This document shows, in pieces, positions 1-26,265 of a stretch of DNA of 26,265 bases. Under the pieces are notes generated by a model. The model did not search any database. It saw nothing but the letters and a program-made list of their open reading frames with translations, and was not told the origin of the DNA. The position numbers and the translations under genes were made by a program. The stretch comes from a virus. The stretch is taken from positions 1-26,265 of the IMG/VR virus record IMGVR_UViG_3300017963_000692, one strand, 5' to 3'. Position 1 is the stretch's first letter; every line of letters starts with the position of its first letter.

Positions 1-606
1 ATCCTAGATGTGTGTGAAAAAGTAACAGGTGATGCCAACGAGGGTATGGATTGGGCGCTAGAGAAAGCAATAGCATCTCAGGCTGATCATTTCATCTGGG
101 ACTGTGACGGTCTTGGTATAAGCCTGAAGCGGCAGGTAGATCAGGCACTGGATGGCAAGAAGATGGAGTACCATATGTTCAAGGGCTCTGAATCGCCGTA
201 TGACCCAGAGATGCCGTACACGCTGGGAGGAAGCCAGAGGGCAAAGACCAACCGAGAGACCTTCTTCAACAAGCGAGCTCAGATGTGGTGGACCCTGCGT
301 GATAGGTTCGAGGCAACGTATCGGGCCGTAGAAAAGGGGCAGTACATCAACCCGGAAGAGCTCATAAGCCTGTCATCAGATATTGACAATATTGAACAAT
401 TACGATCTGAGGTGTGCAGAATACCTTTGAAACGATCAAATAGTGGTAAGATACAGATTTTGAGCAAGGTAGAGATGGCGAAAAAGCCCTACTCAATACC
501 TTCACCGAATATGGGCGATGCTCTTATGATGTCTATGCACTCGCCAAAAATTAATAGTGTCAAACCTGTAGAGATAAACTTCTCAGGATGGAAGCAATAT
601 GGCTGA
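1..606 (+). CDS. terL: Terminase large subunit, C-terminal part (5' truncated by window edge)
   Basis: The frame is open from base 1, so the gene begins upstream and only its last ~201 residues are visible. This is the nuclease half of the packaging motor, which cuts concatemeric DNA and docks on the portal. The RNase H-like fold is indicated by an acidic motif WDCDGLG (Asp codons at 100 and 106) and a late NMGDAL motif (about 511-525), which fit the first and last metal-binding acidic positions of TerL nucleases. The ATPase domain is not in the window. The last 8 bp overlap the portal start, the usual terL-portal arrangement. The GTG at position 10 is only an internal codon and should not be taken as the start. 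Family assignment is confident; the phage subfamily is not determined. Confidence 0.9.
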   Translation: MLDVCEKVTGDANEGMDWALEKAIASQADHFIWDCDGLGISLKRQVDQALDGKKMEYHMFKGSESPYDPEMPYTLGGSQRAKTNRETFFNKRAQMWWTLRDRFEATYRAVEKGQYINPEELISLSSDIDNIEQLRSEVCRIPLKRSNSGKIQILSKVEMAKKPYSIPSPNMGDALMMSMHSPKINSVKPVEINFSGWKQYG

Positions 607-2821
607 GTATGACGATGGCAAAGAGCTAGACAGCCGGGGCGCAGCGGAAGCTGACCTTAGTTACAAGGCTGATTATGAAGATCATCAGGACGTTATAGAC
701 CTGCTGAGCAAGTGTCAGATGGCGGACAAGGACAACCGGGAGCGCGTCAGAGAGGCGCACTTGTTCCTTGATAAGCGAGACGGCCAGTGGGAGCCCTACT
801 GGTGGAACTCAAACGAATCCAAGCCGCGTTATACGTTTGATATGGTCAATCCTATCGTGGATCAGGTAGCCTCTGAGATAGAGCAGAGCGACTACGATAT
901 CCGCGTGTCACCCGCCGGCGGCAACGCAACCAAAGACATTGCGATGGCCTATGACGGCATCATCCGCAACATTGAGCAGCTTTCTAACGCAAAGACAGTC
1001 TACGCGCAGTCCGCCCGGAATATGGTAATCGGCGGTATGGATGGCTGGCGTGTGGTCCAGAAGTACGTTGATGACAATAGCTTTGACCAAGACCTAGCGA
1101 TTGAGCACATCGGCAACTTTGTTGACCGCGTTTGGTTTGATCCTGCGGCTGAGAATCAGGACAAGTCCGACAGTCGGTATGCTTTCGTGCTGCATCCGAT
1201 GTCAAAGGATGAGTATGAGGCCAGATGGCCGGAGGGCTCTGCTGAGAGCGTAGATGATGACCGTGAGGGCGAAGCCTATTACGACAAGGCTGAGGTCATT
1301 GTGGTTGGTGAATTCCTGTATATGGAGTCAGAGGACCGCGAGCTGGTCATGATGTCCAACGGTCAGGTTCATGAGGTCAATGATGACTTTGAGAAGGTTG
1401 TTGATGATCTCGCTGCCATTGGCGTGACTGAGGTCAAGCGCCGCACCCGCAAGAAGCACTATGTATGCAGTAGGTACTTTGATGCGAAAGACTTCCTTGA
1501 AGACAAGAAGGAGACCGTATTTTGCCGCATCCCAGTGGTCCCGGCTTACGCCAACTTCAAGATATTCGAGAACAAGACAATCTACTGGGGCGTGGTAGAG
1601 AAGCTGCTTGATCCGCAACGGGTAATGAACTACAGCGTGTCCCGGGAGATTGAGGAAGGTGCGCTGGCGCCGAGGGCTAAATACTGGATGACAATGGCTC
1701 AGGCTAGTGGTCATGAGAAGCAGCTCCAGACACTGAACACCAACGCAGACCCAGTACAATTCTACAACGTAGACCCAGAGTCTCCTGCGGTCCCACAGCA
1801 GCAAGGCGGAGCTCAGATCAATCCCGGTCTACGGACTATCTCCGAGGCGATGCGCGGAATCATTGGTCAGACGGCTGGTATGTTTGCAGCGAATATGGGT
1901 GACAATCCGGGCCTGCAATCTGGAGTCGCTATCAAGCAGCTACAGGACCGTGGGACTAACAGCACGTTCAAGTACAGCAGAAGCATAGAAATCGCTGTAG
2001 CGGCCACAGGAAGGCTCCTGAAGGATGCTATTCCTATGGTGTACGACACCGAGCGACAGGTCAGGATACTCCGGGAGGATGAGTCCTATGATATGGTCCC
2101 GATCAATCAGAAGGTTATTGACAACGCTACAGGCGAGATTGTCACCGTCAATGATCTGCAAGTTGGAACCTATGACGTTACCTGTCGGGCTGGTCCCAGC
2201 TTCCGCAACCGTCAGCAGGAGACCATTGAGGCCATTACGACACTGGCACAGACTGATCCCAGCCTGATGCAGATCGCTGGTGACCTGTTGCTCCAGAACA
2301 TCTCTACGCCAGCCGCGTCACAGATTGCAGAGCGCAAGCGCATGCAGATGATTGCTCAAGGTCTCATTCCTCAATCTCAGATGACCGAGGAAGAGTTGCA
2401 AGAGATGGCCGCCAAGATGCAGGCGCAGGGACAGGGACAGGCTCCTGATCCCGCTATGGTGCTCGCACAGGCAGAGCAGATGAAGGCTCAGGCCGACATG
2501 ATGAAGGCCCAGATTGACGCTCAGAAGGTGCAGAACGAGACGCTCAAGATACAGCTACAGGCCCAGAACGATCAGAACGAGCTAGTAGCGGAGCAGGCTA
2601 AGACTCAGGTTGATGTCTTCAATGCCCAGACCAATCGCATCAAGGCGCAGGTAGAGGCTGAAAAGGCGGGCGCTGTCATTGATCACACCAACATTAAGGC
2701 ATTCGGCGATCAGCTCGACAATCAAGAGAAGATGTCCGACATGATGGACGAGCAGGAGCGTAGAGCCCGGATGTCAATGATGTCCGATATGGACCTGATG
2801 AGGATTGTGAACGGTGGCTGA
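599..2821 (+). CDS. Portal protein, P22 gp1-like
   Basis: 740 aa, close to the ~725 aa of P22 portal. The portal forms the dodecameric ring at one vertex through which DNA is packaged and ejected. The N-terminal two thirds looks like the P22-type portal family: an early RDGQWEPYWW segment, a YTFDMVNPIVDQ segment, and a central region near residue 345 (PQRVMNYSVSREIEEGA). From about residue 610 to 700 the sequence becomes a Gln/Ala/Lys-rich helix (repeats such as AQAEQMKAQADMMKAQ) with coiled-coil character, matching the long C-terminal barrel of P22-like portals. The ATG at 599 overlaps the end of terL by 8 bp, and the stop overlaps the next gene by 8 bp, so translation is probably coupled. 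Assignment rests on length, position and motif resemblance. Confidence 0.9.
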   Translation: MAEYDDGKELDSRGAAEADLSYKADYEDHQDVIDLLSKCQMADKDNRERVREAHLFLDKRDGQWEPYWWNSNESKPRYTFDMVNPIVDQVASEIEQSDYDIRVSPAGGNATKDIAMAYDGIIRNIEQLSNAKTVYAQSARNMVIGGMDGWRVVQKYVDDNSFDQDLAIEHIGNFVDRVWFDPAAENQDKSDSRYAFVLHPMSKDEYEARWPEGSAESVDDDREGEAYYDKAEVIVVGEFLYMESEDRELVMMSNGQVHEVNDDFEKVVDDLAAIGVTEVKRRTRKKHYVCSRYFDAKDFLEDKKETVFCRIPVVPAYANFKIFENKTIYWGVVEKLLDPQRVMNYSVSREIEEGALAPRAKYWMTMAQASGHEKQLQTLNTNADPVQFYNVDPESPAVPQQQGGAQINPGLRTISEAMRGIIGQTAGMFAANMGDNPGLQSGVAIKQLQDRGTNSTFKYSRSIEIAVAATGRLLKDAIPMVYDTERQVRILREDESYDMVPINQKVIDNATGEIVTVNDLQVGTYDVTCRAGPSFRNRQQETIEAITTLAQTDPSLMQIAGDLLLQNISTPAASQIAERKRMQMIAQGLIPQSQMTEEELQEMAAKMQAQGQGQAPDPAMVLAQAEQMKAQADMMKAQIDAQKVQNETLKIQLQAQNDQNELVAEQAKTQVDVFNAQTNRIKAQVEAEKAGAVIDHTNIKAFGDQLDNQEKMSDMMDEQERRARMSMMSDMDLMRIVNGG

Positions 2822-14298: not shown

Positions 14299-16407
14299 AT
14301 GGATGAGTTAATCCCAGATAGAAGTCAAGCTCCTGTTGTTACTAGCGATCCTGTTGGTTTGAGGGAAATAGGGCAGTCAGAAACTCTGGTTGCCGACATT
14401 CCTCTTACTCCTGAGCAGCAATCTGCAAGAGAGCTTCTCCCTTATAGAGTCGGCGAGGTGCTTCCTGAAAGCGGAGCTATGGGCCGTGTAGGTCTAGGTG
14501 CTCTTAGTGCTTTGACATTCGATCCAAACGAATTCGCGCAGATACTAAAAGTTGCCGATCCTAGAATACAGGTAAGCACAGGGCCAAGAGGCGGTGTTTA
14601 CATAAAACATCCTGATAATCCTCAAACTTATGTTGTTAATAAGCCGGGTTTAAGCTGGGGAGATTTTACCCAAACAATGTCAGCAATCGCTGCGGCAACT
14701 CCTGCTGGTTTGGGTAGAACTGTGTTGACCCGGGCGGGATTGGAAGCCGCAGCTCAAGCAGCAATAGAGTTAGGACAAAGAAGCGCCGGCGGTGAGTTTA
14801 ATGTCGGAGAAGTAGCTATGGCTCCGATGTTTAGCGTGGCCTCAGATTTGCCCGGCGTGGTTTCTGCGGGAAGACAAGAAGCCAGAATGAGAAGTCAGGT
14901 AGCTGGAACGCTTGAAGAGGAAGCGGCTCCAGAGATATCCCGGGTGGCAAGAGAAGCAACAACCGGGCGAGCTCCGCAAGCGGCAGAGCGGATGGCGGAT
15001 GTTGTTCAGCCGGACCCTAGACGGGCTCGCGCTGTTGAAGAGTTAGGATTAGAAGAAATTACTCCGGCAAGAATGGTTTCTCAAAATCCTCAATATATTC
15101 AAGTTGAACAGGCTCTTGCTCAGATTCCGGGCTCAGCAATGGCTAACTCGGAGAAGCAGTTTATAGATCAGCTATCCGCTAGGGCTGGAAACTTCATAGA
15201 CGAGTTTGGAGGAAGCCGGGACTTAATTGCCGTAGATGATCTCATTAAGAAAGAAATGAGCGATACAATGGACGGTCTGAGGTCTCAGTCTGATGCTCTT
15301 TACGCAAAGATCAGCGCAACGATTGATCCTAGAGCTAGGATAACTAATTTGCGTCCGCTTAGGGACGCGCTTAGGTCAAAAGCAATAGATGCAGGCGGTG
15401 TAAGAAACTTATCTCAGCCAGAGCAGCAGTTATTTAGAGAAGTGCAAAGATCAATGTCAGCAACTGGTAGAGCTGGACAAATGACCTACACACGACTTGA
15501 TGAGCTAAGGCAAAAAATAGGAGAACAATACGGTAGCGCGTCTAGAGGTATGTTTGCGGGAGACGCTGCATCATTCCAGCTCGGTAGATTGTATGACGCT
15601 CTTACAGAGGCGCAGGATCAGGCTCTTAGAGACATTGATCCCGCTATGTCTCAGGTATGGAAAACAGCAAAAGCTCTTGTTGCTGAGAGAAAAGGTCTCG
15701 AAGAGATAGCCAAGAATGTTGCTGGTAGGAATATGGAAAAAAATATTGTTCCTCAATTAACCAGAGCTATGAATCGGTTGTCTGAGGGAAACAGCCAGTT
15801 GTTCAAGCAGGTTATAGAGGCTGTTCCAGAAAGCATGAGACAAGAAGCTGTAGTAACGGCTCTTGGCGGTCTTTTTACTCGTGGAGGAAGAACGAATGTA
15901 GAATTATCACCCGGTCAATTTGCTGCTTGGTGGAACAAAATAAAGAGAGACTCTGGTGCTAGAGAATTGCTTTTCCAAAACCTTCCTGCTGGCGGTGCAA
16001 GATATCTCAATAACTTAGCGTCTATATCAAAGGCTTATGCAGATGCAGCGGCGTCTGCTCCCAAAACTGGTATAACTAACGCAATGGAGATGATGAATAA
16101 CGATAATGGATTCATCAGCAAGTTTTTCGGAGAAATACCTATAGCTGGTAGTTGGGTAAAATGGGCTTTGGAGTCTGCTCCAGAGGATACACTAAAAGCT
16201 GCTAGTCAAATGATGGGAGATCCCACATTTAAGAGAATCATTGTAAGAGCTGCAAGAGGAGAGCCCACAGATAGAGCTGAGGCTAGCTTTATCAAGAGCA
16301 AGGTATTTAACAACTGGGCAAACACTGTTCCAGCCAATATTAGAGAAAGAGCGTTGGCCGTAGGTGTGGCTAATTACTTTTTGAACAGTACAAGCGGTGA
16401 AGAATAA
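14299..16407 (+). CDS. Putative large ejection protein, 702 aa
   Basis: Largest of the four-gene ejection-type block and in the position of P22 gene 16. Residues 1-60 are polar. At 64-115 lies a small alpha/beta part with RIQVSTGPRGGVYIKHPDNP. Residues 125-190 are hydrophobic Ala/Gly helices that could insert in a membrane (TMSAIAAATPAGLGRTVL). Residues 200-560 are long charged helices (QFIDQLSARAGNFIDEFGG near 286), and the C-terminus has a KWALESAPEDTLKAA helix. No lytic transglycosylase or protease motif is visible. It abuts the preceding gene by an 8-base gap with AGTAGG as SD, and its stop overlaps the fibre gene (TAATG). Confidence 0.55.
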   Translation: MDELIPDRSQAPVVTSDPVGLREIGQSETLVADIPLTPEQQSARELLPYRVGEVLPESGAMGRVGLGALSALTFDPNEFAQILKVADPRIQVSTGPRGGVYIKHPDNPQTYVVNKPGLSWGDFTQTMSAIAAATPAGLGRTVLTRAGLEAAAQAAIELGQRSAGGEFNVGEVAMAPMFSVASDLPGVVSAGRQEARMRSQVAGTLEEEAAPEISRVAREATTGRAPQAAERMADVVQPDPRRARAVEELGLEEITPARMVSQNPQYIQVEQALAQIPGSAMANSEKQFIDQLSARAGNFIDEFGGSRDLIAVDDLIKKEMSDTMDGLRSQSDALYAKISATIDPRARITNLRPLRDALRSKAIDAGGVRNLSQPEQQLFREVQRSMSATGRAGQMTYTRLDELRQKIGEQYGSASRGMFAGDAASFQLGRLYDALTEAQDQALRDIDPAMSQVWKTAKALVAERKGLEEIAKNVAGRNMEKNIVPQLTRAMNRLSEGNSQLFKQVIEAVPESMRQEAVVTALGGLFTRGGRTNVELSPGQFAAWWNKIKRDSGARELLFQNLPAGGARYLNNLASISKAYADAAASAPKTGITNAMEMMNNDNGFISKFFGEIPIAGSWVKWALESAPEDTLKAASQMMGDPTFKRIIVRAARGEPTDRAEASFIKSKVFNNWANTVPANIRERALAVGVANYFLNSTSGEE

Positions 16408-18707
16408 TGGCTAGATTCGGCGAGATAAACGCACAATACTTTGATGACGCTGGCGATCCGCTGAGCAGCGGTAAGATATATTTCTACGAGACCGGAACGA
16501 CTACTCTCAAGGATACCTTCAGCGACATCAACCAGACTATCGCTAACACCAATCCGGTCATTCTGAGCGCGGCTGGTAGGCAGCCAAACATATTCTTTAG
16601 CGGTACTGCTAAGGCGATACTGGTAGACAAGAATGACGTACAGATACTGGTTCGTGACCCGGTAGGTCAGACTGCCAGTGTATTCGGTGATGGCTGGGTA
16701 GCTACGAAGATATACAGTGCTGATGCCGTGGTATTAGGCAGTGACGGTCAATACTACCGATCTCTCGCCGCAGGTAACCAGAACAACGATCCGACATCTA
16801 CGTCAGGATACTGGACGCTACTCTACTCAGTAGAATGGAACTCAGGCATAACCTATCAGGAAGGCGCTGTAGTCACTTATGATGGTGAGCAGTACCAGAG
16901 CCTTCAGAACACTAACTTAAACAACAACCCATCCAGCGCGACATCGTACTGGGTGCTGCTGAGTTTTGCTTGGATATCTACGGCAACCTACGCAGACAAT
17001 CAGAATGCTGTCGGAACTGACGGTGTGCTCTACACATCTCAGCAAGCAGGCAATCAAGGCAATGATCCTACAGATGCTGCTAATCGCCCGACTTACTGGG
17101 TAGGCACATCTGCTGATGCGGCAGCCAGTGCTGCGGCGGCTGCGACTTCTGCTACAGCGGCGGCTACATCTGCAACCAACGCTGCTACTTCTGAGACCAA
17201 TGCTTCGAACAGCGCAACAGCGGCAGCCACAAGCGCCACAAACTCTGCTAATTCAGCAACAGCCGCGGCTACTTCTGAAACGAATGCGGCCAACAGCGCG
17301 ACTGCTGCGGCCACTAGCGCCACTAATGCAGCCACTTCAGAGACTAACGCTGCGACATCTGCTACCAATGCCTCAAACTCAGCTACTGCTGCTGCTAACT
17401 CTGCTACTGCGGCTGCAACGTCAGAGACCAATGCGGCTAACTCAGAAACGGCTGCTGCAACTTCTGCGACTAACGCAGCTACGAGTGAGACTAACGCGGC
17501 AACCAGTGAGACAAACGCAGCTAACAGCGCCACAGCAGCAGCTACCAGTGCTACCAATGCGGCTACCAGCGAAAGCAACGCATCTACATCAGCTACAGCG
17601 GCAGCGACTTCTGCAACCAATGCAGCGACAAGTGCCACAGCAGCCGCTTCCTCGGCCACAGACGCGGCCACAGCAGAGACAGGAGCGGAAGCAGCTCTGG
17701 CTGACTTCAACAGCAAGTATTTAGGAGCCTACGCCACACAGCCCACAGGCACGGCAGCAGGCCAACTGTACTTCAACACCACATCAGACACGATGTTCGT
17801 ATATACCGGGACGGCGTGGACTGAAGCTGGCTCAGCAGTAAATGGCACTAGCGAGCGTCAGGAGTACACAGCAACGTCCGGGCAGACTAGCTTTAACGCT
17901 ACCTATGATGTGGGCTTTGTTGATGTATATCTGAACGGTTCTAGGCTAATACCCACAACCGACTTCACGGCTACTAATGGCACGACTGTTGTTCTGACTA
18001 CAGGAGCCACGACAGGTGACAACGTATCTATTGTGGCCTATGGCGCATTCAGCCTAGCGGACGTTTACACAAAGCTACAGAGTGATGCTCGATACCTACA
18101 GATCACAAGCAACCTATCTGATCTGGATAACGCGGCAACAGCTCGGACTAACTTAGGTCTAGGCACGATAGCCACAGCAGCAACAAGTGACTACGCAGCT
18201 ACTGCTAATAATCTTTCAGACCTTGCCAGTGCTGCTACTGCACTTACTAATTTAGGACTCACGGCTACAGCAGCCGAGGTCAACTACAATGACATTACTA
18301 CTCTAGGATTAACAGAAGCGTCCAAGACAGTCACAGCAGACGCTAACGGTGTAGTGACCTTTGATAACGGTATATCAGAAGAGTATACAGCGGTTACTTC
18401 AAGCTCTAATGCTACGACCGTAAACCTTCAAGATGGTACGAACTTTTCTCATACACTAACTGAGAACACTACGTTTACTTTTTCAAACCCAGCGGCTAGT
18501 GGCAAGTCTTCTTCATTTACCTTGAAGCTGGTACAAGACGCTAGTGCTTCGGGATACACAGTGACTTGGCCCGCAGCAGTTGATTGGCCCGCAGCCACAG
18601 CACCAACACTCACAGCCACAGCTAGTGCAGTTGATTACTTTGTATTCATAACTCATGACGGCGGTACGACTTGGTACGGCTTCACAGCAGGACAGGCTCT
18701 CGCATAA
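16407..18707 (+). CDS. Tail fibre: head-binding N-terminus, three CBM-like modules, heptad rod, knob
   Basis: 766 aa. Residues 1-95 (GKIYFYETGTTT, then a PVILSAAGRQP segment) resemble virion-anchoring N-terminal domains of the P22 tailspike type. Residues about 96-232 hold three copies of a chitin/carbohydrate-binding-like module, each with YxxGDxV-like and final YW(T/V)LL or YWVG motifs (YRSLAAGNQNNDPTS, YQSLQNTNLNNNPSS, YTSQQAGNQGNDPTD). Residues 248-422 are 25 unbroken Ser-led heptads. Residues 430-766 hold phage-fibre motifs: LYFNTTSDTMFVYTGTAWTE, VDVYLNGSRLIPTTDFTATN, two NLSD/TNLGL repeats, and a beta C-terminus. Likely the main fibre contacting surface glycans. Start overlaps the previous stop by one base. 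Confidence 0.8.
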   Translation: MARFGEINAQYFDDAGDPLSSGKIYFYETGTTTLKDTFSDINQTIANTNPVILSAAGRQPNIFFSGTAKAILVDKNDVQILVRDPVGQTASVFGDGWVATKIYSADAVVLGSDGQYYRSLAAGNQNNDPTSTSGYWTLLYSVEWNSGITYQEGAVVTYDGEQYQSLQNTNLNNNPSSATSYWVLLSFAWISTATYADNQNAVGTDGVLYTSQQAGNQGNDPTDAANRPTYWVGTSADAAASAAAAATSATAAATSATNAATSETNASNSATAAATSATNSANSATAAATSETNAANSATAAATSATNAATSETNAATSATNASNSATAAANSATAAATSETNAANSETAAATSATNAATSETNAATSETNAANSATAAATSATNAATSESNASTSATAAATSATNAATSATAAASSATDAATAETGAEAALADFNSKYLGAYATQPTGTAAGQLYFNTTSDTMFVYTGTAWTEAGSAVNGTSERQEYTATSGQTSFNATYDVGFVDVYLNGSRLIPTTDFTATNGTTVVLTTGATTGDNVSIVAYGAFSLADVYTKLQSDARYLQITSNLSDLDNAATARTNLGLGTIATAATSDYAATANNLSDLASAATALTNLGLTATAAEVNYNDITTLGLTEASKTVTADANGVVTFDNGISEEYTAVTSSSNATTVNLQDGTNFSHTLTENTTFTFSNPAASGKSSSFTLKLVQDASASGYTVTWPAAVDWPAATAPTLTATASAVDYFVFITHDGGTTWYGFTAGQALA
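17148..17672 (+). repeat. 25 tandem 21-bp/heptad repeats in tail fibre
   Basis: Twenty-five consecutive heptads of the form S-(A/E)-T-(A/N)-A-(A/S)-(T/N/S), for example SATAAAT, SATNAAT and SETNAAN, encoded without a break (residues 248-422). Codons vary freely between copies, so the pattern is maintained at protein level. Heptad period with small residues suggests a tightly packed, probably trimeric helical rod as in other phage fibre repeats. Confidence 0.9.
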
Positions 18708-20629
18708 TGAGTAAAAAGCTAATACAAGCAGCGGCAGGTGCAGGTGGCACTCTCGGGTATGTAGAGGATGTATTCTCTACTTATTTGTATGAAGGAAATG
18801 GTTCTACACAGACCATAACCAACGGCATTGATTTAGATGGCGAAGGTGGTTTGGTGTGGCTTAAAAGTAGAGACCTTGCGAGAAATAACAATCTGTACGA
18901 CACTGAAAGGATAGGCACTTGGCCTAAACATTTAGTTTCTGATTCAACGGCAGCGGAAATAGATACAGAGCGTCTTTCATCGTTTAATTCAAATGGTTTT
19001 AGTCTATCCTCTTCTTCCGCTGTAAATGCTTCAGGTGAAAACTACGTCTCTTGGACATTCCGCAAGGCTGAGAAGTTCTTTGATGTAGTTACTTGGACAG
19101 GGAATGGGACTTCTCAGACAATAGCACATGCTCTTAACTCAACTATAGGCTCAATTTTTATTAAAAGAACTGACTCTTCTTTTGATTGGAAAGTTTACCA
19201 TATATCACTTGGAACATCCCAAGAGCTTGAGTTAAACCAAACAGGAGCAGCGGCGTCCACTGGAGGCACTGTTACAGCGGTAAGCGATTCTTCATTTACT
19301 GTAGGAGGAGGCAGTGGAGTTAACGCTTCTGGTGGTTCATACGTCGCCTACCTATTCGCCCACGACGCAGGAGGCTTTGGAGACGATGGCAGCGAGAGTA
19401 TTATTAAGTGCGGGAGTTTTACCGGTAATACTACTGTTGATTTAGGTTTTGAGCCTGCTTGGATAATGATAAAACCTACTAGCACAACAGGCGACTGGGA
19501 TATGCATGATGTTATGCGTGGATGGCCTTCTTCCGGTGATGCACAAAGATTAAAAGCTAACTCGTCAGTAGCTGAAACTTCAACATCACAAATATACCCA
19601 AATGCTACAGGCTTTAGCACATTAATAGGGTCTGCAACATACATCTACATAGCAATCCGCAGACCTATGAAGACTCCTGAGTCTGGGACTGAGGTTTTTA
19701 ATTCAGAGTTAGTAACGGCGACACAGGCCACAAAAATTGTTACAGGGATAGGTTTTAGCCCTGATTTACTTATTAATGGCGTCCGTAGCAACGCTAATTA
19801 TGGACAGCAAGTTACAGATAGGTTGCGTGGAGTAAATAAGCAGCTTTTTACTGAGTACACCTCCTCAGAAAGCACAACTAATGGGACGGCTCTAGTTTCT
19901 TTAGATATGGACGGCTTTACGTTAGGCGCTGACACAGGAGGAACGGGATGGAATGCTTACTCTGGATACACTTCCGTTAAATGGGCCTTCAAACGCGCCA
20001 CAGGCTTCTTTGATGTGGTGGCTTATACTGGTAATGGTGTAGCAGGACACGCTATTAACCATAACTTAGGCGTAGCGCCTGAGTGGATTATATGTAAAAA
20101 ACGTTCATCAGGTGGAAGTTTTAATGATTGGTATACAGTTACGTCTGTTTACTACAATACAAATCCATACGATAGACAATCTGCTTTAAATGGAACTAAT
20201 GGTTTTACAGGAGGAGGCTTTGTTAGCTCAGCAGACAGCACATCATTTACTCTTGCTAATGCTGTTGTTGCAAATGAAAACACATATGACCATATAGCTT
20301 ATCTTTTTGCTTCAGTGGCTGGCGTTAGTAAAATTGGAACATACACAGGAACTGGGTCAGACGTTAGTGTTGATTGCGGCTTTAGCTCTGGAGCTAGATT
20401 TGTATATATCCAAAGAGCAGATGCTACTGGAGACGGAAAATACGTCTGGGACAGCGCAAGAGGCATTGTCGCAGGTAACGATCCATATCTGTTATTGAAC
20501 TCCGCAGCAGCAGAAGTCACATCTACAGACTACATAGACCCGTTAAACGCAGGTTTTACAGTAACAAGCTCCGCTCCAGCAGGATTGAATGCTAGTGGCG
20601 GAACTTATTTTTTCTTAGCAATAGCATAG
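18707..20629 (+). CDS. Tail fibre/adhesin of six ~105-aa modules
   Basis: 640 aa from ATG 18707, which overlaps the previous stop (TAATG). An upstream in-frame TTG at 18671 lies within the fibre gene and is not used. After a 20-residue lead (MSKKLIQAAAGAGGTLGYVE), the protein is six related modules starting near residues 22, 124, 231, 328, 433 and 540. Each opens with a strand ending GNG-(S/T)QTI- or TGN-like, continues with an alternating strand with IxIKRTxSxxDW-type residues, and most end NASG-x-Y-V-(A/S)-(W/Y)-x-F. This module resembles a family seen in marine phage fibres (I believe named DUF7483, not checked). Beta-sandwich fold and receptor binding are inferred. No signal peptide or catalytic motif seen. 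Confidence 0.7.
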   Translation: MSKKLIQAAAGAGGTLGYVEDVFSTYLYEGNGSTQTITNGIDLDGEGGLVWLKSRDLARNNNLYDTERIGTWPKHLVSDSTAAEIDTERLSSFNSNGFSLSSSSAVNASGENYVSWTFRKAEKFFDVVTWTGNGTSQTIAHALNSTIGSIFIKRTDSSFDWKVYHISLGTSQELELNQTGAAASTGGTVTAVSDSSFTVGGGSGVNASGGSYVAYLFAHDAGGFGDDGSESIIKCGSFTGNTTVDLGFEPAWIMIKPTSTTGDWDMHDVMRGWPSSGDAQRLKANSSVAETSTSQIYPNATGFSTLIGSATYIYIAIRRPMKTPESGTEVFNSELVTATQATKIVTGIGFSPDLLINGVRSNANYGQQVTDRLRGVNKQLFTEYTSSESTTNGTALVSLDMDGFTLGADTGGTGWNAYSGYTSVKWAFKRATGFFDVVAYTGNGVAGHAINHNLGVAPEWIICKKRSSGGSFNDWYTVTSVYYNTNPYDRQSALNGTNGFTGGGFVSSADSTSFTLANAVVANENTYDHIAYLFASVAGVSKIGTYTGTGSDVSVDCGFSSGARFVYIQRADATGDGKYVWDSARGIVAGNDPYLLLNSAAAEVTSTDYIDPLNAGFTVTSSAPAGLNASGGTYFFLAIA

Positions 20630-20636
20630 GTGACTT

Positions 20637-21134
20637 ATGGAATTTAGAGTACGTTCAAGCGGTGAGCTAAAAACTCAAGGCGAAATCCGCAAACTCAATC
20701 CAAATGTTTCTTTGCCTAAAGTATGGAATAGCAACGTCTATGAAACGCTAGGCATTGACCCAGTATTAGAAACGCCCAAGCCAGACACTACTGGTGACTA
20801 CAAGGTAGTTGTGCGGAATGGCGCAGAACAGGACGCGAATAACAACTGGGTGCAGGCGTGGGTAGAGCGGGATATGTTTTCCGATACTACGGAAGATGGC
20901 GTTACTACCACTAAGGCAGAACATGAGGCAGCTTATCAGGCTAGATTGGATACAGAAGCTGCGGCTAATGTTAGGTCTGAGCGTGACCAAAAGCTAAAAG
21001 ACACAGATTGGATGGGTATGTCAGACGTTACTATGTCAACTGAATGGGCTACCTACCGACAAGCACTACGGGATGTTCCTTCACAAGCAGGATTCCCACA
21101 CACGATTACTTGGCCTACTGAGCCAGAGGTATAG
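20637..21134 (+). CDS. Tail-assembly-chaperone-like protein, 165 aa
   Basis: N-terminal 50 residues start MEFRVRSSGELKTQGEIRKL and carry a WNSNVYETLGIDPVLETP segment seen in phage tail-assembly proteins. The C-terminal half has a helical RLDTEAAANVRSERDQKLKD region, then DTDWMGMSDVTMSTEWATYR and the conserved ending RQALRDVPSQAGFPHTITWP. That ending matches the Phage_tail_APC-type family to my recollection. Such proteins are encoded beside fibre genes and aid fibre assembly. It lies between two fibre genes with 7- and 2-base gaps. SD AGGTGA (20628-20633) overlaps the preceding stop. Confidence 0.75.
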   Translation: MEFRVRSSGELKTQGEIRKLNPNVSLPKVWNSNVYETLGIDPVLETPKPDTTGDYKVVVRNGAEQDANNNWVQAWVERDMFSDTTEDGVTTTKAEHEAAYQARLDTEAAANVRSERDQKLKDTDWMGMSDVTMSTEWATYRQALRDVPSQAGFPHTITWPTEPEV

Positions 21135-21136
21135 AG

Positions 21137-24100
21137 ATGAGCAAATCAAGAGACATAGCCGATAGCGCGGCTACTATTAACTTTATTGATAACCTGACTT
21201 CTGATGCTCAGACTCAGCTCAATACTCTTGACACTGAGATAGACAACATCTCAGTAACTTCTGGCTCTCTGACCAAGACATTCACAAGCGGTGAAGCAGC
21301 CACAATTACCTTGTCAGGTAACGTGCTGTCTCCTGTTGTGGGCGTGACTAAAGAAGTAGCGCAGACGGGAACAACAAATAATAACTGGGACGTTAATTCT
21401 ACTACAGAGAACTACACACGTTTGGACTCTGCTACTGCGACTACTTTGGATTTTGTTGGGTTTGATGTTAGCGGAATTAGTTTTGTTGATAGCTTTAGCG
21501 TTTCATCTCAAAGCGCAGAACCTACAGATATAGCATTTAACACTGACGGCACTAAAATGTTTGTTGCTGAATATGGTGGGGCAGAAATAAACGAATTTAC
21601 TCTTTCTGCGGCATTTGATGTATCAACAGCAACTTATTCTCAGAACTTTTCTGTTTCATCTCAAGAAACTGGGCCAACAGGATTGGCCTTTAATACTGAT
21701 GGGACAAAAATGTTTGTTAGTGGTGAGTCTGGAGATAACGTAAACGAGTACACTTTGAGTACAGGTTTTGATATATCCACAGCAACATACTCACAAAACT
21801 TTTCAATATCCGCACAAGATACAAATCCAAAATCAATGACCTTTAACGCCGATGGCACTAAGATGTTTGTTATTGGTGGTGCTGGTCAAGATGTTAATGA
21901 ATACACATTATCTACAGGCTTTGATGTTTCTACTGCATCCTACTCACAGAACTTTTCTGTTGCTTCTCAAGAAACTGGCCCACGAGGAATAACATTTAAT
22001 ACTAATGGCACTAGAATGTTTATCGCTGGAAATGTGGGTGATTCTGTTTATGAGTACATTTTGAGTACAGGTTTTGATGTTTCCACGGCGACTTATTCTG
22101 AAAGTTTTTCAGTATCGGCGCAAGACGCTAGTCCGTGGGGCATAGCCTTCAATACTGATGGCACTAAAATGTTGTTAGTTGGTTATACTGGACAAGATGT
22201 TAATGAATACAATGTTGACATTGCATATTATTCTCATGTAACTCTCGGCACAGGCTCATTCGCATCTGCTGACGTAGGCAAGACTATCTACGCTAACAGC
22301 GGTGTGTTTATTCTAACTTCTACTGCTGGCGCAATATTTGAAACCACAGCACCCACTTCATACGCTCAAGTAGCTTCAGGCTCTTGGGAGATGTATGCCG
22401 TTGTGTATAACACGACTGATGGTGATTTGGAGTTGAGTGGTAAAGAAAGTTTTGATATTTCTACTGCCACTTTTGTTGATTCTTTTTCGGTTGCTTCACA
22501 AGATACTCAGCCAAGAACTGTAGCCTTTAACAACAATGGCACTAAGATGTTTATTGTTGGGACTATCGGAGATTCTGTTTACGAATATGCATTGTCAACA
22601 GGCTTTGATGTTTCTACTGCTAGTTATACCCAAAGTTTTTCCGTATCTTCTCAAGACACAAGCCCAGTAGGAATAGCTTTTAACACTGACGGAACTAAAA
22701 TGTTTATTACTGGTCAAGCAGGAGATGATGTAAATGAGTACACATTATCTACTGGTTTTGACGTTTCTACAGCATCTTTTGTAGATAGTTTTAGCGTGTC
22801 AGGACAAGATAATTCTCCACAATCAATAGCGTTTAACACTGACGGAACAAAAATGTTTGTTCTTGGCTCTCAGGCAGATGACGTAAACGAATATACATTA
22901 AGTACAGGGTTTGATGTTTCCACAGCATCCTATTCTCAAAACTTTTCTGTTGCTTCGCAAGACACATCTCCATACGGATTAGCTTTTAGCACAAATGGAA
23001 ATAAAATGTTTATTGTTGGTGCTTCAGGAGATTCTGTTTACGAATACAGATTAAGCACTGGCTTTGATATCTCTACAGCCTCTTATTCCCAAAACTTTTC
23101 CATATCTTCAGTAGATACAACACCATACGGAATAGCTTTTAATACTGACGGAACTAAAATGTTTATTGTTAGTTTTAGTGAAGATGACGTAAAAGAGTAC
23201 ACATTAGCATCAGCAGCCATCCCATCAGGCTACCACGCAGTTCACACCACAAACTCCACAGACTCTACTTACTGGACAGACATTAACTCTATGACCGCAG
23301 ATGAAGCTGCTGGTGATGGAAGTATTTACTACGCAGTCTCCACAGACGATAGGACTACTTGGAAGATTGCCGATAACACTGACGGCATACGGTCTATTGT
23401 CCGTAACAACTCAGGCACTTGGCAGTACAACTCCAATGGTACTTATGCGTCTACTACTTGGACTAACGCGACTACCAACACAGAGTTGAATGCTTTGCAG
23501 GAGGCTATGGAAGGTGCTGTTGTGGGCTATGATTTAGCTAACGCTAGTTATGACTCTGTTAGCTTTGATGTTTCATCTCAAGATACGCAGCCACAAGCAA
23601 TAGCATTTAATGCTAATGGTACAAAGATGTTTATTGTTGGTGAAACAGGGCAGGATGTAAATGAATACACTTTAAGCACAGGTTTTAATGTATCAACCGC
23701 TTCATACTCTCAAGCATTTTCTGTTTCTTCTCAAGAGTTATATCCTCAAGGAATCGCCTTTAATTCTGACGGCACAAAAATGTTTATTGTCGGGACTAAT
23801 GGTGACGACGTAAATGAATATACATTAGGCACAGGGTTTGACGTATCTACTGCGTCTTTTGTAGATTCTTTTAGCGTGTCTGCTCAAGACACATCTCCAA
23901 GAGGTGTAGCTTTTAGCACTGATGGGACTAAAATGTTTGTTGTAGGTATTACTAATGACTCTGTTTATGAATATACGTTATCAACAGGGTTTGATGTATC
24001 AACTTCATCTTTTGTAGATAGCTTTAGCGTTTCAGCTCAGGATACAGCGCCGTTAGATTTAACTTTTAATTCTGACGGAACTAAGATGTACATTATTGGT

Positions 24101-24562
24101 AGCACTGGTGACGATGTTAACGAGTATACGCTTTCCACAGGTTTTGATATATCTACCGCAACGTATGCTCAAAACTTTTCTGTAGCTTCACAAGAAACAT
24201 CACCAACAGGAATAACATTTAATTCTGACGGCACTAAGATGTTTATTGTTGGCTCTACTACAGACTCTGTATATCAATACAGTACAGCAGCCTACACAAA
24301 CCAAATGGACAAGACTCAGCTAGACGCTGTATCTGACGCTAATCACTTTACACTGGGTAATGACCTAGACCTTGCCATAGTATTTAACCTAACCAGTGGG
24401 ACTACGGTTCCATCCAGTGATGGTGTGTCTATTAACTACGATGCCAATGTACTTAATAAAGGCGCGATACTGGGTACTGATTATGACTATGACGCTCCTG
24501 CCCAGAATAAGGTCAGGATTACAGCATTGACAGGCAACAACCTGAAGGTGCGGGTAGTTTGA
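21137..24562 (+). CDS. Giant receptor-binding candidate with fifteen beta-propeller-like blades
   Basis: 1141 aa, largest protein of the window. Residues 1-108 begin MSKSRDIADSAATINFIDNL, an opening I associate with marine phage tail proteins. Fifteen ~51-residue repeats follow in three sets of five: residues 109-363, 439-693 and 798-1053. Each repeat has FDVSTA-x-Y-x-x-x-FSVSSQD-x-x-P-x-x-IAFN-x-DGTKMF-(I/V)-x-G-x-x-x-x-x-V-x-EYTLSTG, typical of WD/YVTN-like propeller blades. Spacers at 364-438 and 694-797 are unlike the blades; the second carries SIVRNNSGTWQYNSNGTY. The C-terminus (1054-1141, NQMDKTQLDAVSDANHFTLG) is also common to phage fibres. Sets of five suggest three five-bladed propellers, a shape known in lectins such as tachylectin-2. 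Lectin activity is inferred. Confidence 0.75.
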   Translation: MSKSRDIADSAATINFIDNLTSDAQTQLNTLDTEIDNISVTSGSLTKTFTSGEAATITLSGNVLSPVVGVTKEVAQTGTTNNNWDVNSTTENYTRLDSATATTLDFVGFDVSGISFVDSFSVSSQSAEPTDIAFNTDGTKMFVAEYGGAEINEFTLSAAFDVSTATYSQNFSVSSQETGPTGLAFNTDGTKMFVSGESGDNVNEYTLSTGFDISTATYSQNFSISAQDTNPKSMTFNADGTKMFVIGGAGQDVNEYTLSTGFDVSTASYSQNFSVASQETGPRGITFNTNGTRMFIAGNVGDSVYEYILSTGFDVSTATYSESFSVSAQDASPWGIAFNTDGTKMLLVGYTGQDVNEYNVDIAYYSHVTLGTGSFASADVGKTIYANSGVFILTSTAGAIFETTAPTSYAQVASGSWEMYAVVYNTTDGDLELSGKESFDISTATFVDSFSVASQDTQPRTVAFNNNGTKMFIVGTIGDSVYEYALSTGFDVSTASYTQSFSVSSQDTSPVGIAFNTDGTKMFITGQAGDDVNEYTLSTGFDVSTASFVDSFSVSGQDNSPQSIAFNTDGTKMFVLGSQADDVNEYTLSTGFDVSTASYSQNFSVASQDTSPYGLAFSTNGNKMFIVGASGDSVYEYRLSTGFDISTASYSQNFSISSVDTTPYGIAFNTDGTKMFIVSFSEDDVKEYTLASAAIPSGYHAVHTTNSTDSTYWTDINSMTADEAAGDGSIYYAVSTDDRTTWKIADNTDGIRSIVRNNSGTWQYNSNGTYASTTWTNATTNTELNALQEAMEGAVVGYDLANASYDSVSFDVSSQDTQPQAIAFNANGTKMFIVGETGQDVNEYTLSTGFNVSTASYSQAFSVSSQELYPQGIAFNSDGTKMFIVGTNGDDVNEYTLGTGFDVSTASFVDSFSVSAQDTSPRGVAFSTDGTKMFVVGITNDSVYEYTLSTGFDVSTSSFVDSFSVSAQDTAPLDLTFNSDGTKMYIIGSTGDDVNEYTLSTGFDISTATYAQNFSVASQETSPTGITFNSDGTKMFIVGSTTDSVYQYSTAAYTNQMDKTQLDAVSDANHFTLGNDLDLAIVFNLTSGTTVPSSDGVSINYDANVLNKGAILGTDYDYDAPAQNKVRITALTGNNLKVRVV
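21461..22225 (+). repeat. Blade repeat set A: five 153-bp repeats
   Basis: Five consecutive 153-base units with no length change (starts 21461, 21614, 21767, 21920, 22073) encode residues 109-363. The most constant codon blocks encode FSVSSQ, FNTDGTKMF and NEYTLSTGF. Confidence 0.88.
22451..23215 (+). repeat. Blade repeat set B: five 153-bp repeats
   Basis: Five further 153-base units, exactly in register, encode residues 439-693. Units here end DSVYEYALSTG or DDVNEYTLSTG, and two share the FVDSFSVSGQ or FVDSFSVASQ type rather than YSQNFSV. Confidence 0.88.
23528..24295 (+). repeat. Blade repeat set C: five repeats, first 156 bp
   Basis: Set C begins with a degenerate unit (YDLANASYDSVSFDVSSQD), one residue longer than the others, followed by 153-base units starting at 23684, 23837, 23990 and 24143; the last blade is about one residue short. 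It encodes residues 798-1053. Confidence 0.85.
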
Positions 24563-24778: not shown

Positions 24779-25242
24779 TGATTGATCCGGTATCAGCAGT
24801 AGCCACTGCAACAGCTGCGTTTAATGCGTTGCAGAAAGGCATTAAGATGGGCAAAGAACTAGAGAGTATGGGCAAAACTCTAGGTGCTTGGTTCGATGCC
24901 TGTAGAGAGGTTAAGGACGCTCAAGAACAGATAGAGAATCCTCCGTTATTCAAAGCTCTGACCAACAAGAAGTCTGTTGAGCAGGAAGCAATGGATAACA
25001 TGATCCGCAAGAAAAAGATTGCCCAGCAGGAATATGATCTACGCATGTCTATCTGTCTCAGGTACGGAGAGCAGGCGTACATCGAGATGATGCGGGACCG
25101 GGACACTATTACGGCAAACCGCAAAAGACAGGCACAAAGACAGGCCCACAGACGTAAGAACTTTGTTCTAAACGCCATACTATTTTCTTTGATCGGCGTG
25201 ACGATATATCTATTTTGGATAGTAATTAGGTTGTTCACATGA
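24778..25242 (+). CDS. C-terminally membrane-anchored helical protein, 154 aa
   Basis: Residues 1-65 are amphipathic helix (MIDPVSAVATATAAFNALQK, then a WFDACREVKDAQEQIENPPL stretch). A strongly charged helix follows (about 65-125, rich in Lys, Arg, Gln, with AQRQAHRRK). A single transmembrane segment lies at about 128-153 (FVLNAILFSLIGVTIYLFWI). The basic cluster before it would place the body in the cytoplasm, a tail-anchored topology. Related proteins occur in marine phages to my recollection, with no assigned role. A lysis or host-membrane function is possible, but no holin family is recognised. Its stop overlaps the next ATG by 3 bases (ATGA). Confidence 0.6.
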   Translation: MIDPVSAVATATAAFNALQKGIKMGKELESMGKTLGAWFDACREVKDAQEQIENPPLFKALTNKKSVEQEAMDNMIRKKKIAQQEYDLRMSICLRYGEQAYIEMMRDRDTITANRKRQAQRQAHRRKNFVLNAILFSLIGVTIYLFWIVIRLFT

Positions 25243-26265
25243 AAAAGAATGGCGGGCGTAAGGTTATCAGTCCTGAGCTGTTAAAATACTGCACAACTGA
25301 ATATCAGCGGGAAATCATTGAGCTATATATGGAGCTCGGTACTTCTAGGGCAGTTGGCGAAGAGATCGGGATCAAAGAGAGAACCGTCAGGGCAATAGTG
25401 GCGTCAATAGAGGCCAACGCGGCTAAAAAGGGAATGGGCTTTGATGGCGGCATCCCGGACGGATATAGACTCCGCGGCAGGTCTACGCTTGTAGATGCTG
25501 ACGGTAATACCAAGATTGAGTGGGTAAAGACTGAAGTAGACAAAGAGCGCATGCAGGAGATGATGCGCGAAATTACCGAAGAGTTAGCTCAGGGCGTGAA
25601 GCCGTGGCCTGTAGTTAAGAAACCCGAGAAGACAACTAAAGACCTTTGCACCGTATATACAATAACCGACTACCACATCGGAGCATATGCCTTCAAAGAT
25701 GAGACCGGGGACGAGTGGGATCTGGAGATAGCTGAGAGCACATTGTACGAGGGTATCAGTGACATGATGGCCGGGAGCCCGGATTCCGAGCAGGCTATAT
25801 TCTGTCAAATGGGTGACTTCCTGCACTGGGATGGATTAGCTGCGGTAACGCCGCTCTCAAAGCATATTCTGGATGGCAGCGGGAGATATTCAGAGCTGGT
25901 CCAGCTGGCCGTAGAAACGTGCCTGAAGACCGTAGAGATGCTGTTGCGTAAGCACAAGAATGTTCACGTTATAATGTGCGAGGGTAACCACGATATTGCT
26001 GGTTCTTTATGGTTGCAGGCAATCATGAAAATAGCCTTCAAGGACAACAAGCGTGTTACAGTTGATAACAGCGTATTTCCCTACTACAAGTTTAAGTGGG
26101 GCAAGGTGTTTTTGGGCTGGCATCACGGCCATTTGACTAAGATAACCGGGCTGGCGGGCAAGTTTTTCTCCGAGCCCAGATTCAGGCAGGATATGTCAGA
26201 TGCTGAGTATATCTACCTGTCTACCGGGCATTTACATACTAAGGAGCTAATGGAGCGGTCTGGGG
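25239..26265 (+). CDS. HTH-metallophosphoesterase fusion (3' truncated by window edge)
   Basis: 342 codons are open to the window end with no stop, so the C-terminus is missing. Residues about 20-60 form a helix-turn-helix (REIIELYMELGTSRAVGEEI, then TVRAIVASIE), like the DNA-binding part of small terminases or sigma-like activators. From residue 138 there is a calcineurin-like phosphoesterase with its metal-site motifs in order: DYH (D144, H146), GDFLHWD (D193), GNHD (N250, H251, D252), GWHHGH (H295, H296, H298) and GHLH (H331, H333). Family members hydrolyse phosphoesters, including nucleic acid, with two metal ions. The substrate here is unknown. Such HTH-phosphoesterases often lie near terminase genes in phages, consistent with the window starting inside terL. 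Confidence 0.8.
   Translation, partial: MKKNGGRKVISPELLKYCTTEYQREIIELYMELGTSRAVGEEIGIKERTVRAIVASIEANAAKKGMGFDGGIPDGYRLRGRSTLVDADGNTKIEWVKTEVDKERMQEMMREITEELAQGVKPWPVVKKPEKTTKDLCTVYTITDYHIGAYAFKDETGDEWDLEIAESTLYEGISDMMAGSPDSEQAIFCQMGDFLHWDGLAAVTPLSKHILDGSGRYSELVQLAVETCLKTVEMLLRKHKNVHVIMCEGNHDIAGSLWLQAIMKIAFKDNKRVTVDNSVFPYYKFKWGKVFLGWHHGHLTKITGLAGKFFSEPRFRQDMSDAEYIYLSTGHLHTKELMERSG

Follow-up and report, generated by a model that had tools for sequence, protein, structure and literature searches.

Putative whole-ring exchange in a three-slot fibre of marine phages predicted to carry five-bladed propellers

The window analysed here, the 26,265 nucleotides of the IMG/VR virus record IMGVR_UViG_3300017963_000692, contains an ATG-started open reading frame (ORF) of 1141 aa, taken from the ORF list of the window and assigned to a fibre or adhesin (Table 1). 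It stands in a tail fibre cluster, as indicated by the chaperone domain PF16778 and the tail fibre PHROGs encoded upstream, and the position of the assembly chaperone directly before it together with the surrounding fibre genes makes its attribution as a tail fibre likely. Relatives of this chaperone adjoin the fibre in 12 loci. The start codon of the neighbouring tail fibre gene with DUF7483 is uncertain, the longest ORF beginning at 18671. Another tail fibre gene (16407-18707) contains 21-base repeats at 17129-17605, rich in Ala, Thr, Asn and Ser and mirrored by ORFs on the opposite strand. Downstream of the fibre, at 25239-26264, lies a phage DNA repair exonuclease (PHROG 704), relatives of which are likewise found downstream in 17 related loci; its help in recombination is possible.

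Table 1. Positions of the fibre, its parts and neighbouring genes in the window, and of the domain found in place of ring B in two relatives
Feature	Position	Strand	Basis
Fibre/adhesin ORF, three predicted five-bladed propellers in a conserved frame	21137..24562	+	ORF list, blade count, AlphaFold2 model
N-terminal tail, residues 1-43	21137..21265	+	AlphaFold2: short helices predicted at low confidence
Frame segment N, residues 44-108	21266..21460	+	Kept in 93 related frames; entropy 0.97 bits/column (residues 40-112)
Ring A in slot A, five blades, residues 114-360	21476..22216	+	20 strands, pLDDT mostly ~90
Frame segment S1, residues 366-434	22232..22438	+	Conserved, 0.79 bits/column
Ring B in slot B, five blades, residues 444-690	22466..23206	+	20 strands; alone pLDDT 97.4, pTM 0.93
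Frame segment S2, residues 698-793	23228..23515	+	Conserved, 0.71 bits/column
Ring C in slot C, five blades, residues 803-1050	23543..24286	+	20 strands, pLDDT mostly >90
Frame segment C, C-terminal, residues 1055-1141	24299..24559	+	Most conserved part, 0.66 bits/column
Tail fibre assembly chaperone	20637..21134	+	PF16778 Phage_tail_APC, E 4.2e-23; PHROG 4912; 2 bases before fibre start
Neighbouring tail fibre protein with DUF7483	18707..20629	+	PF24299, E 1.4e-90; PHROG 24898 tail fibre
Laminin_G_3 in place of propeller, slot B	L205:2113-3837; L089 (CRP-738 gp33) residues ~465-685		

The core motif F[NS]x[ND]Gx[KR]M is present in 15 copies in the ORF, grouped in three blocks (residues 134-338, 464-668 and 824-1028), with a spacing of exactly 51 aa inside each block and steps of 126 and 156 aa between blocks, so that the spacers add 75 and 105 aa. 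This motif count and spacing bear out the original prediction, made from the letters of the window, of fifteen ~51-aa blades arranged as 5+5+5; of the spacer lengths proposed there, 75 residues was confirmed for the first, while the second measures 105 and not 104. A 153-base period was found independently by Tandem Repeats Finder (scores 327-674). The regular blocks are no chance pattern, since the blade-core profile retrieves five-blade blocks in nearly all of ~240 homologous ring slots. Spacers and termini, in agreement with what had been proposed, bear no relation to the blades yet are conserved among relatives.

In the full-length AlphaFold2 (AF2) model, built with 42 relatives in the alignment, the rings form three separate confident blocks (pLDDT mostly 88-96), and the segments between them mostly fall below a pLDDT of 50. 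Each block contains 20 strands in the order d, (abcd)x4, abc, which fits five blades, the last of them completed by the first strand, closure being read from strand order and confidence. Ring B modelled alone with 102 other rings again gave 20 strands, at the scores listed in Table 1. Five blades of four antiparallel strands per domain are thus indicated by the AF2 strands and by the one-ring gap lengths in the 93 frames described below, and the models fit three predicted five-bladed propeller domains on one chain, as had been proposed. Seven-bladed closure or a continuous solenoid across the spacers, which the prediction had named as its counter-case, did not appear in AF2, and strand order and the quantised gap lengths speak against either reading.

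Among solved structures the best 50 Foldseek matches of the ring reach TM scores of only 0.49-0.65 and include many propellers known to have six or seven blades; rings of other phages, in contrast, are matched at 0.95-0.97. A PDB sequence search with the whole fibre protein matched no chain; by ring profile the nearest solved relative is the archaeal YVTN surface-layer propeller 1l0q (E 4.4e-13), which we take to be seven-bladed and which superimposes on the ring with a TM of only 0.54. Weak similarity to the Vgb lyase, lactonase, SGL and arylesterase profiles raises the question whether the rings could attack surface polysaccharide enzymatically instead of serving in binding, all the more as five-bladed folds include glycosidases. 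We regard this as very improbable: matches of the window fibre stay below the curated Pfam cut-offs (Vgb_lyase 44.1 bits against 50, NHL 17.1 against 20, Arylesterase 19.8 against 21.3), homologues L083 and L285, which exceed the cut-off for Lactonase or SGL, do so by repeat-level matches, and no catalytic residue recurs in the rings, their invariant columns being blade-turn glycines.

Scanning of IMG/VR revealed 249 stretches encoding fibre relatives, the best 80 of which were used. Cultured relatives are the Roseobacter phages CRP-2, CRP-9, CRP-13 and CRP-738 and the Lentibacter phage ICBM2, in all of which the protein is annotated as hypothetical. Profile-based counting assigned 5+5+5 blades to 59 of 81 ORFs, the window's own copy (L081) being counted among them. 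Departures mostly correspond to contig ends, to the absence of whole rings, or to a diverged blade scoring below threshold, where the gap widens by about one blade. Profiles of the non-ring segments N, S1, S2 and C located 93 sequence-distinct viral frames, some of them near duplicates, and distances between these segments provided a measure of occupancy independent of blade recognition. With few exceptions the gaps are bimodal, either 1-10 aa (empty) or ~246-279 aa (one ring). Slot A is empty in 14 frames (1-5 aa) and filled in 79 (246-271 aa); slot B is empty in two (9-10 aa), the others having 207-279 aa plus one case of 800 aa; slot C is empty in 22 (3-4 aa), with 216-276 aa in the others and 380 aa in one. 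Filled (1) and empty (0) slots A-B-C combine in these 93 frames as 111, 110, 011, 010, 100 and 101; a frame with all three slots empty, sought with the S1-S2-C stretch of L135, was absent from the loci examined. The junctions inspected between empty and filled states are clean and in frame, with no target-site duplication. Conservation of the frame extends to cultured phages, its C-terminal segment being 64-66% identical in the four CRP roseophages. Slot occupancy across the 93 frames agrees with the proposal that the repeats form a domain inserted in a shared fibre frame, and this part of the original prediction stood.

Several unusual fillings deserve separate description. In L065 (1111-6183) slot A is empty, slot B holds three tandem rings (the 800-aa case) and slot C one, giving 20 blades; the linker of the triple ring is altered after each fifth blade. 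The 216-aa slot C of L228 (residues ~728-942) is the sole four-blade ring seen, explained either by real loss of one blade or by assembly collapse of near-identical repeats. The 380-aa slot C of L074 comprises five blades and an extra insert; an extra domain of ~110 aa, which by eye may be cupredoxin-like, is located in this protein within S2 (residues ~965-1040). The 207- and 231-aa fillings of slot B, in L205 and CRP-738 (L089), represent not a propeller but a concanavalin-type domain, Laminin_G_3 (LamG), recognised above cut-off with E of 1.3e-9 and 2.3e-12, respectively.

Pairwise comparison of DNA revealed that near-identical frames carry rings that are either near-identical or very different, frame pairs alike by 95-99% having rings alike by only 64-69%. 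For L008 and L017 identity alternates along the gene: 99% in N, 68% in ring A, 96% in S1, 66% in ring B, 98% in S2, 64% in ring C and 96% in C. Single rings may be shared: only ring A between L017 and L006 (96% DNA), only ring B between L006 and L007 (99%) and only ring C between L195 and L046 (99%). Identity of same-slot ring pairs lies mostly at 35-75% and again at 95-100%, with few pairs between. The window and L090 are alike by 96.8% in N, 93.6% in S1 and 96.6% in S2 over 200-290 bases and by 51-58% in rings, and the 6 kb downstream of the fibre give no alignment at that sensitivity; flanking genes likewise differ among carriers. Synonymous difference in closely framed pairs amounts to 0.29 in the frame and ~0.67 in rings, which does not readily follow from point mutation within one gene, while replacement would give it. 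Same-slot matches account for 90 of the 91 recent ring matches (at least 80% identity), as would be expected if exchange were anchored in the flanks of each slot. Separate ring lineages for each slot were rejected, since the ring tree sorts rings by slot only weakly, despite this same-slot preference of recent matches. No silent ring cassettes were recognised in other parts of the phage genome in the 16 records searched; the ring matches there fall within fibre-sized ORFs, and those of 918, 1024 and 474 aa, situated where contigs of G009 and G002 end, are partial.

From these sequence comparisons the unit of exchange appears to be the whole ring and not the blade, and the family shows whole rings apparently swapped, lost, multiplied or replaced by a lectin-type domain in a frame that hardly changes. 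The idea that the repeat core is expandable by recombination is therefore retained in part: the changes fit recombination, but growth by single blades does not hold, since rings of five change as a whole. Blade-by-blade expansion was rejected, the only exceptions being the four-blade ring of L228 and apparent blade-level mosaics within the ring, found in 2 same-slot ring pairs. Most frames come from metagenome contigs, and their segments are conserved enough for assemblers to join strains, so part of the mosaic pattern could have arisen during assembly. That near-identical frame segments in mixed virus populations produced the swapping pattern largely as an artefact is nevertheless highly improbable in our estimation: the same contrast between frame (79-96%) and rings (49-57%) separates the cultured isolates CRP-2 and CRP-9, the LamG replacement is found in CRP-738, and chimeras would still require rings so diverse on one frame.

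Column entropy across 43 sequences ranges from 0.66 to 0.97 bits in the frame and from 1.50 to 1.64 bits in rings. The most variable blade positions are -6 and -4, at the end of the d-a loop and the start of strand a, and +12, +13 and +16 in the b-c loop, whereas less variation is found in the a-b turn and over most of the c-d loop. Since the d-a and b-c loops of propellers share one face, the two variable loops probably lie together and make one face of the ring variable. The pN/pS ratio reaches 0.90 at the hypervariable positions, against 0.47 in the remainder of the rings and 0.25 in the frame, never exceeding 1; this pattern is one of relaxed or diversifying change, short of proof of positive selection. 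The annotations of the scanned window proteins name no reverse transcriptase, which together with a template repeat would lie near the target of a diversity-generating retroelement. Weak constraint is also what would be expected if the rings were spacer or shield domains, or bound other virion proteins, with the receptor site residing in the C-terminal segment or another fibre. Such an arrangement would agree with the location of rings inside the chain rather than at its tip, with the presence of other tail fibre genes nearby and with the existence of empty slots, but we consider it unlikely, given that variation is concentrated on two loops with the rest of the blade kept, that whole rings are swapped between near-identical frames and that a lectin-type domain takes the place of a ring.

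The most plausible interpretation, and in our opinion a probable one, is a modular tail fibre or adhesin with three slots, whose rings recognise the host surface and are swapped as whole units via recombination in the frame. The gene product would serve in the virion of a short-tailed marine phage. Its frame N-S1-S2-C may represent a shaft or scaffold with three slots, putatively trimeric, as suggested by the failure of the frame to fold alone in the AF2 monomer. Each slot would usually house one self-contained five-bladed beta-propeller closed by its N-terminal strand, and the rings would act as recognition heads. The loops d-a and b-c would form their hypervariable face, opposite to a conserved one, and the probable ligand of this face is a molecule of the cell surface, with a glycan as the first candidate; recognition of surface glycans is favoured by the ability of a lectin-type domain to occupy a slot otherwise held by a ring. 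Whole rings are supposed to be replaced, removed or added slot by slot through homologous recombination, for which the short conserved segments of the frame would provide the sites, and independent change at each slot would alter phage specificity. The link between ring and host range is not a simple one, since a single strain is host to CRP-2, CRP-9 and CRP-13 although their rings differ; a change of ring may thus track another receptor or receptor variant, not another host species. If the modular interpretation is right, ocean phages possess a readable host-recognition code made of three independent slots, a one-ring unit of exchange and a defined variable face, testable in the cultured CRP-2, -9, -13 and -738; genes now labelled hypothetical would become candidate host-range determinants, and a route would be provided for linking phage contigs to receptors. 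The five-blade rule across a few hundred natural rings with near-regular 51-aa repeats may also be useful for studies of propeller design and evolution.

Among known proteins, those of CRP-2, CRP-9, CRP-13 and CRP-738 (gp51, gp42, gp43 and gp33) share the frame and slots of the window fibre, the first three being 33-40% identical to it over the whole protein and the last differing by LamG in slot B. ICBM2 AYP28110, encoded between tail assembly chaperone genes, contains a ring of this family with five blades, which matches ring B at a TM of 0.95, but it is a 403-aa protein with a single ring and without this frame. The huge phage LR756508 (L085, 484 kb) has several genes with rings of this family, one of them coding for a protein of 752 aa that has only one ring, of five blades. 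Rings 45-60% identical to ring B occur in cellular proteins, namely SAR11/SUP05 autotransporters (L260, L265, L276, L294, L303 and L330), where one ring is joined to the Autotransporter beta-domain PF03797; bacteria may therefore display the same module as phages carry. Other cellular carriers are a giant cadherin-like alphaproteobacterial protein, Bacteroidota and Patescibacteria, and in the genome collection the family is arranged mostly in blocks of five, sometimes ten. A more far-reaching proposal, which we put forward tentatively and regard as possible rather than probable, is a combinatorial adhesin: unrelated marine phages would share the frame with its near-identical DNA anchors and fill the slots independently from a common pool of rings and LamG overlapping with the SAR11-type autotransporter rings. 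If so, one recognition domain would serve phages and bacteria alike.

Conserved motifs alternating with hypervariable segments and a role in host range are described for the Gp38 adhesins of T-even phages in PMC6851490 (Trojet et al. 2011 cited there); the variable parts of Gp38 are short loops of a polyglycine sandwich, whereas whole 250-aa rings are exchanged in the fibre family of the window. The closest known protein is the receptor-binding protein Gp45 of staphylococcal phage phi11, a homotrimer with one five-bladed propeller per monomer, located between stem and C-terminal domains and thought to bind sugar (GlcNAc) (PMC4901313; a related structure is given in PMC7048315). Given its existence, the initial statement that no phage protein of this design had been described was overstated. 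Gp45 is like the window fibre in being a phage receptor-binding protein with a five-bladed propeller, yet no swappable slots are described for it, and its architecture, a homotrimer with coiled-coil stem and tower in which every monomer has one propeller, is not that of the window fibre, whose frame differs and whose single chain bears three rings. Gp45 is absent from the best 50 Foldseek matches of the ring and gave no sequence match either, and in the literature searched, largely open-access papers, we encountered no protein in which one chain bears several five-bladed rings in exchangeable slots. That phage receptor-binding proteins may contain a five-bladed propeller is thus known already, and what is new here, with no precedent found, is the arrangement of three propellers per chain in swappable slots.
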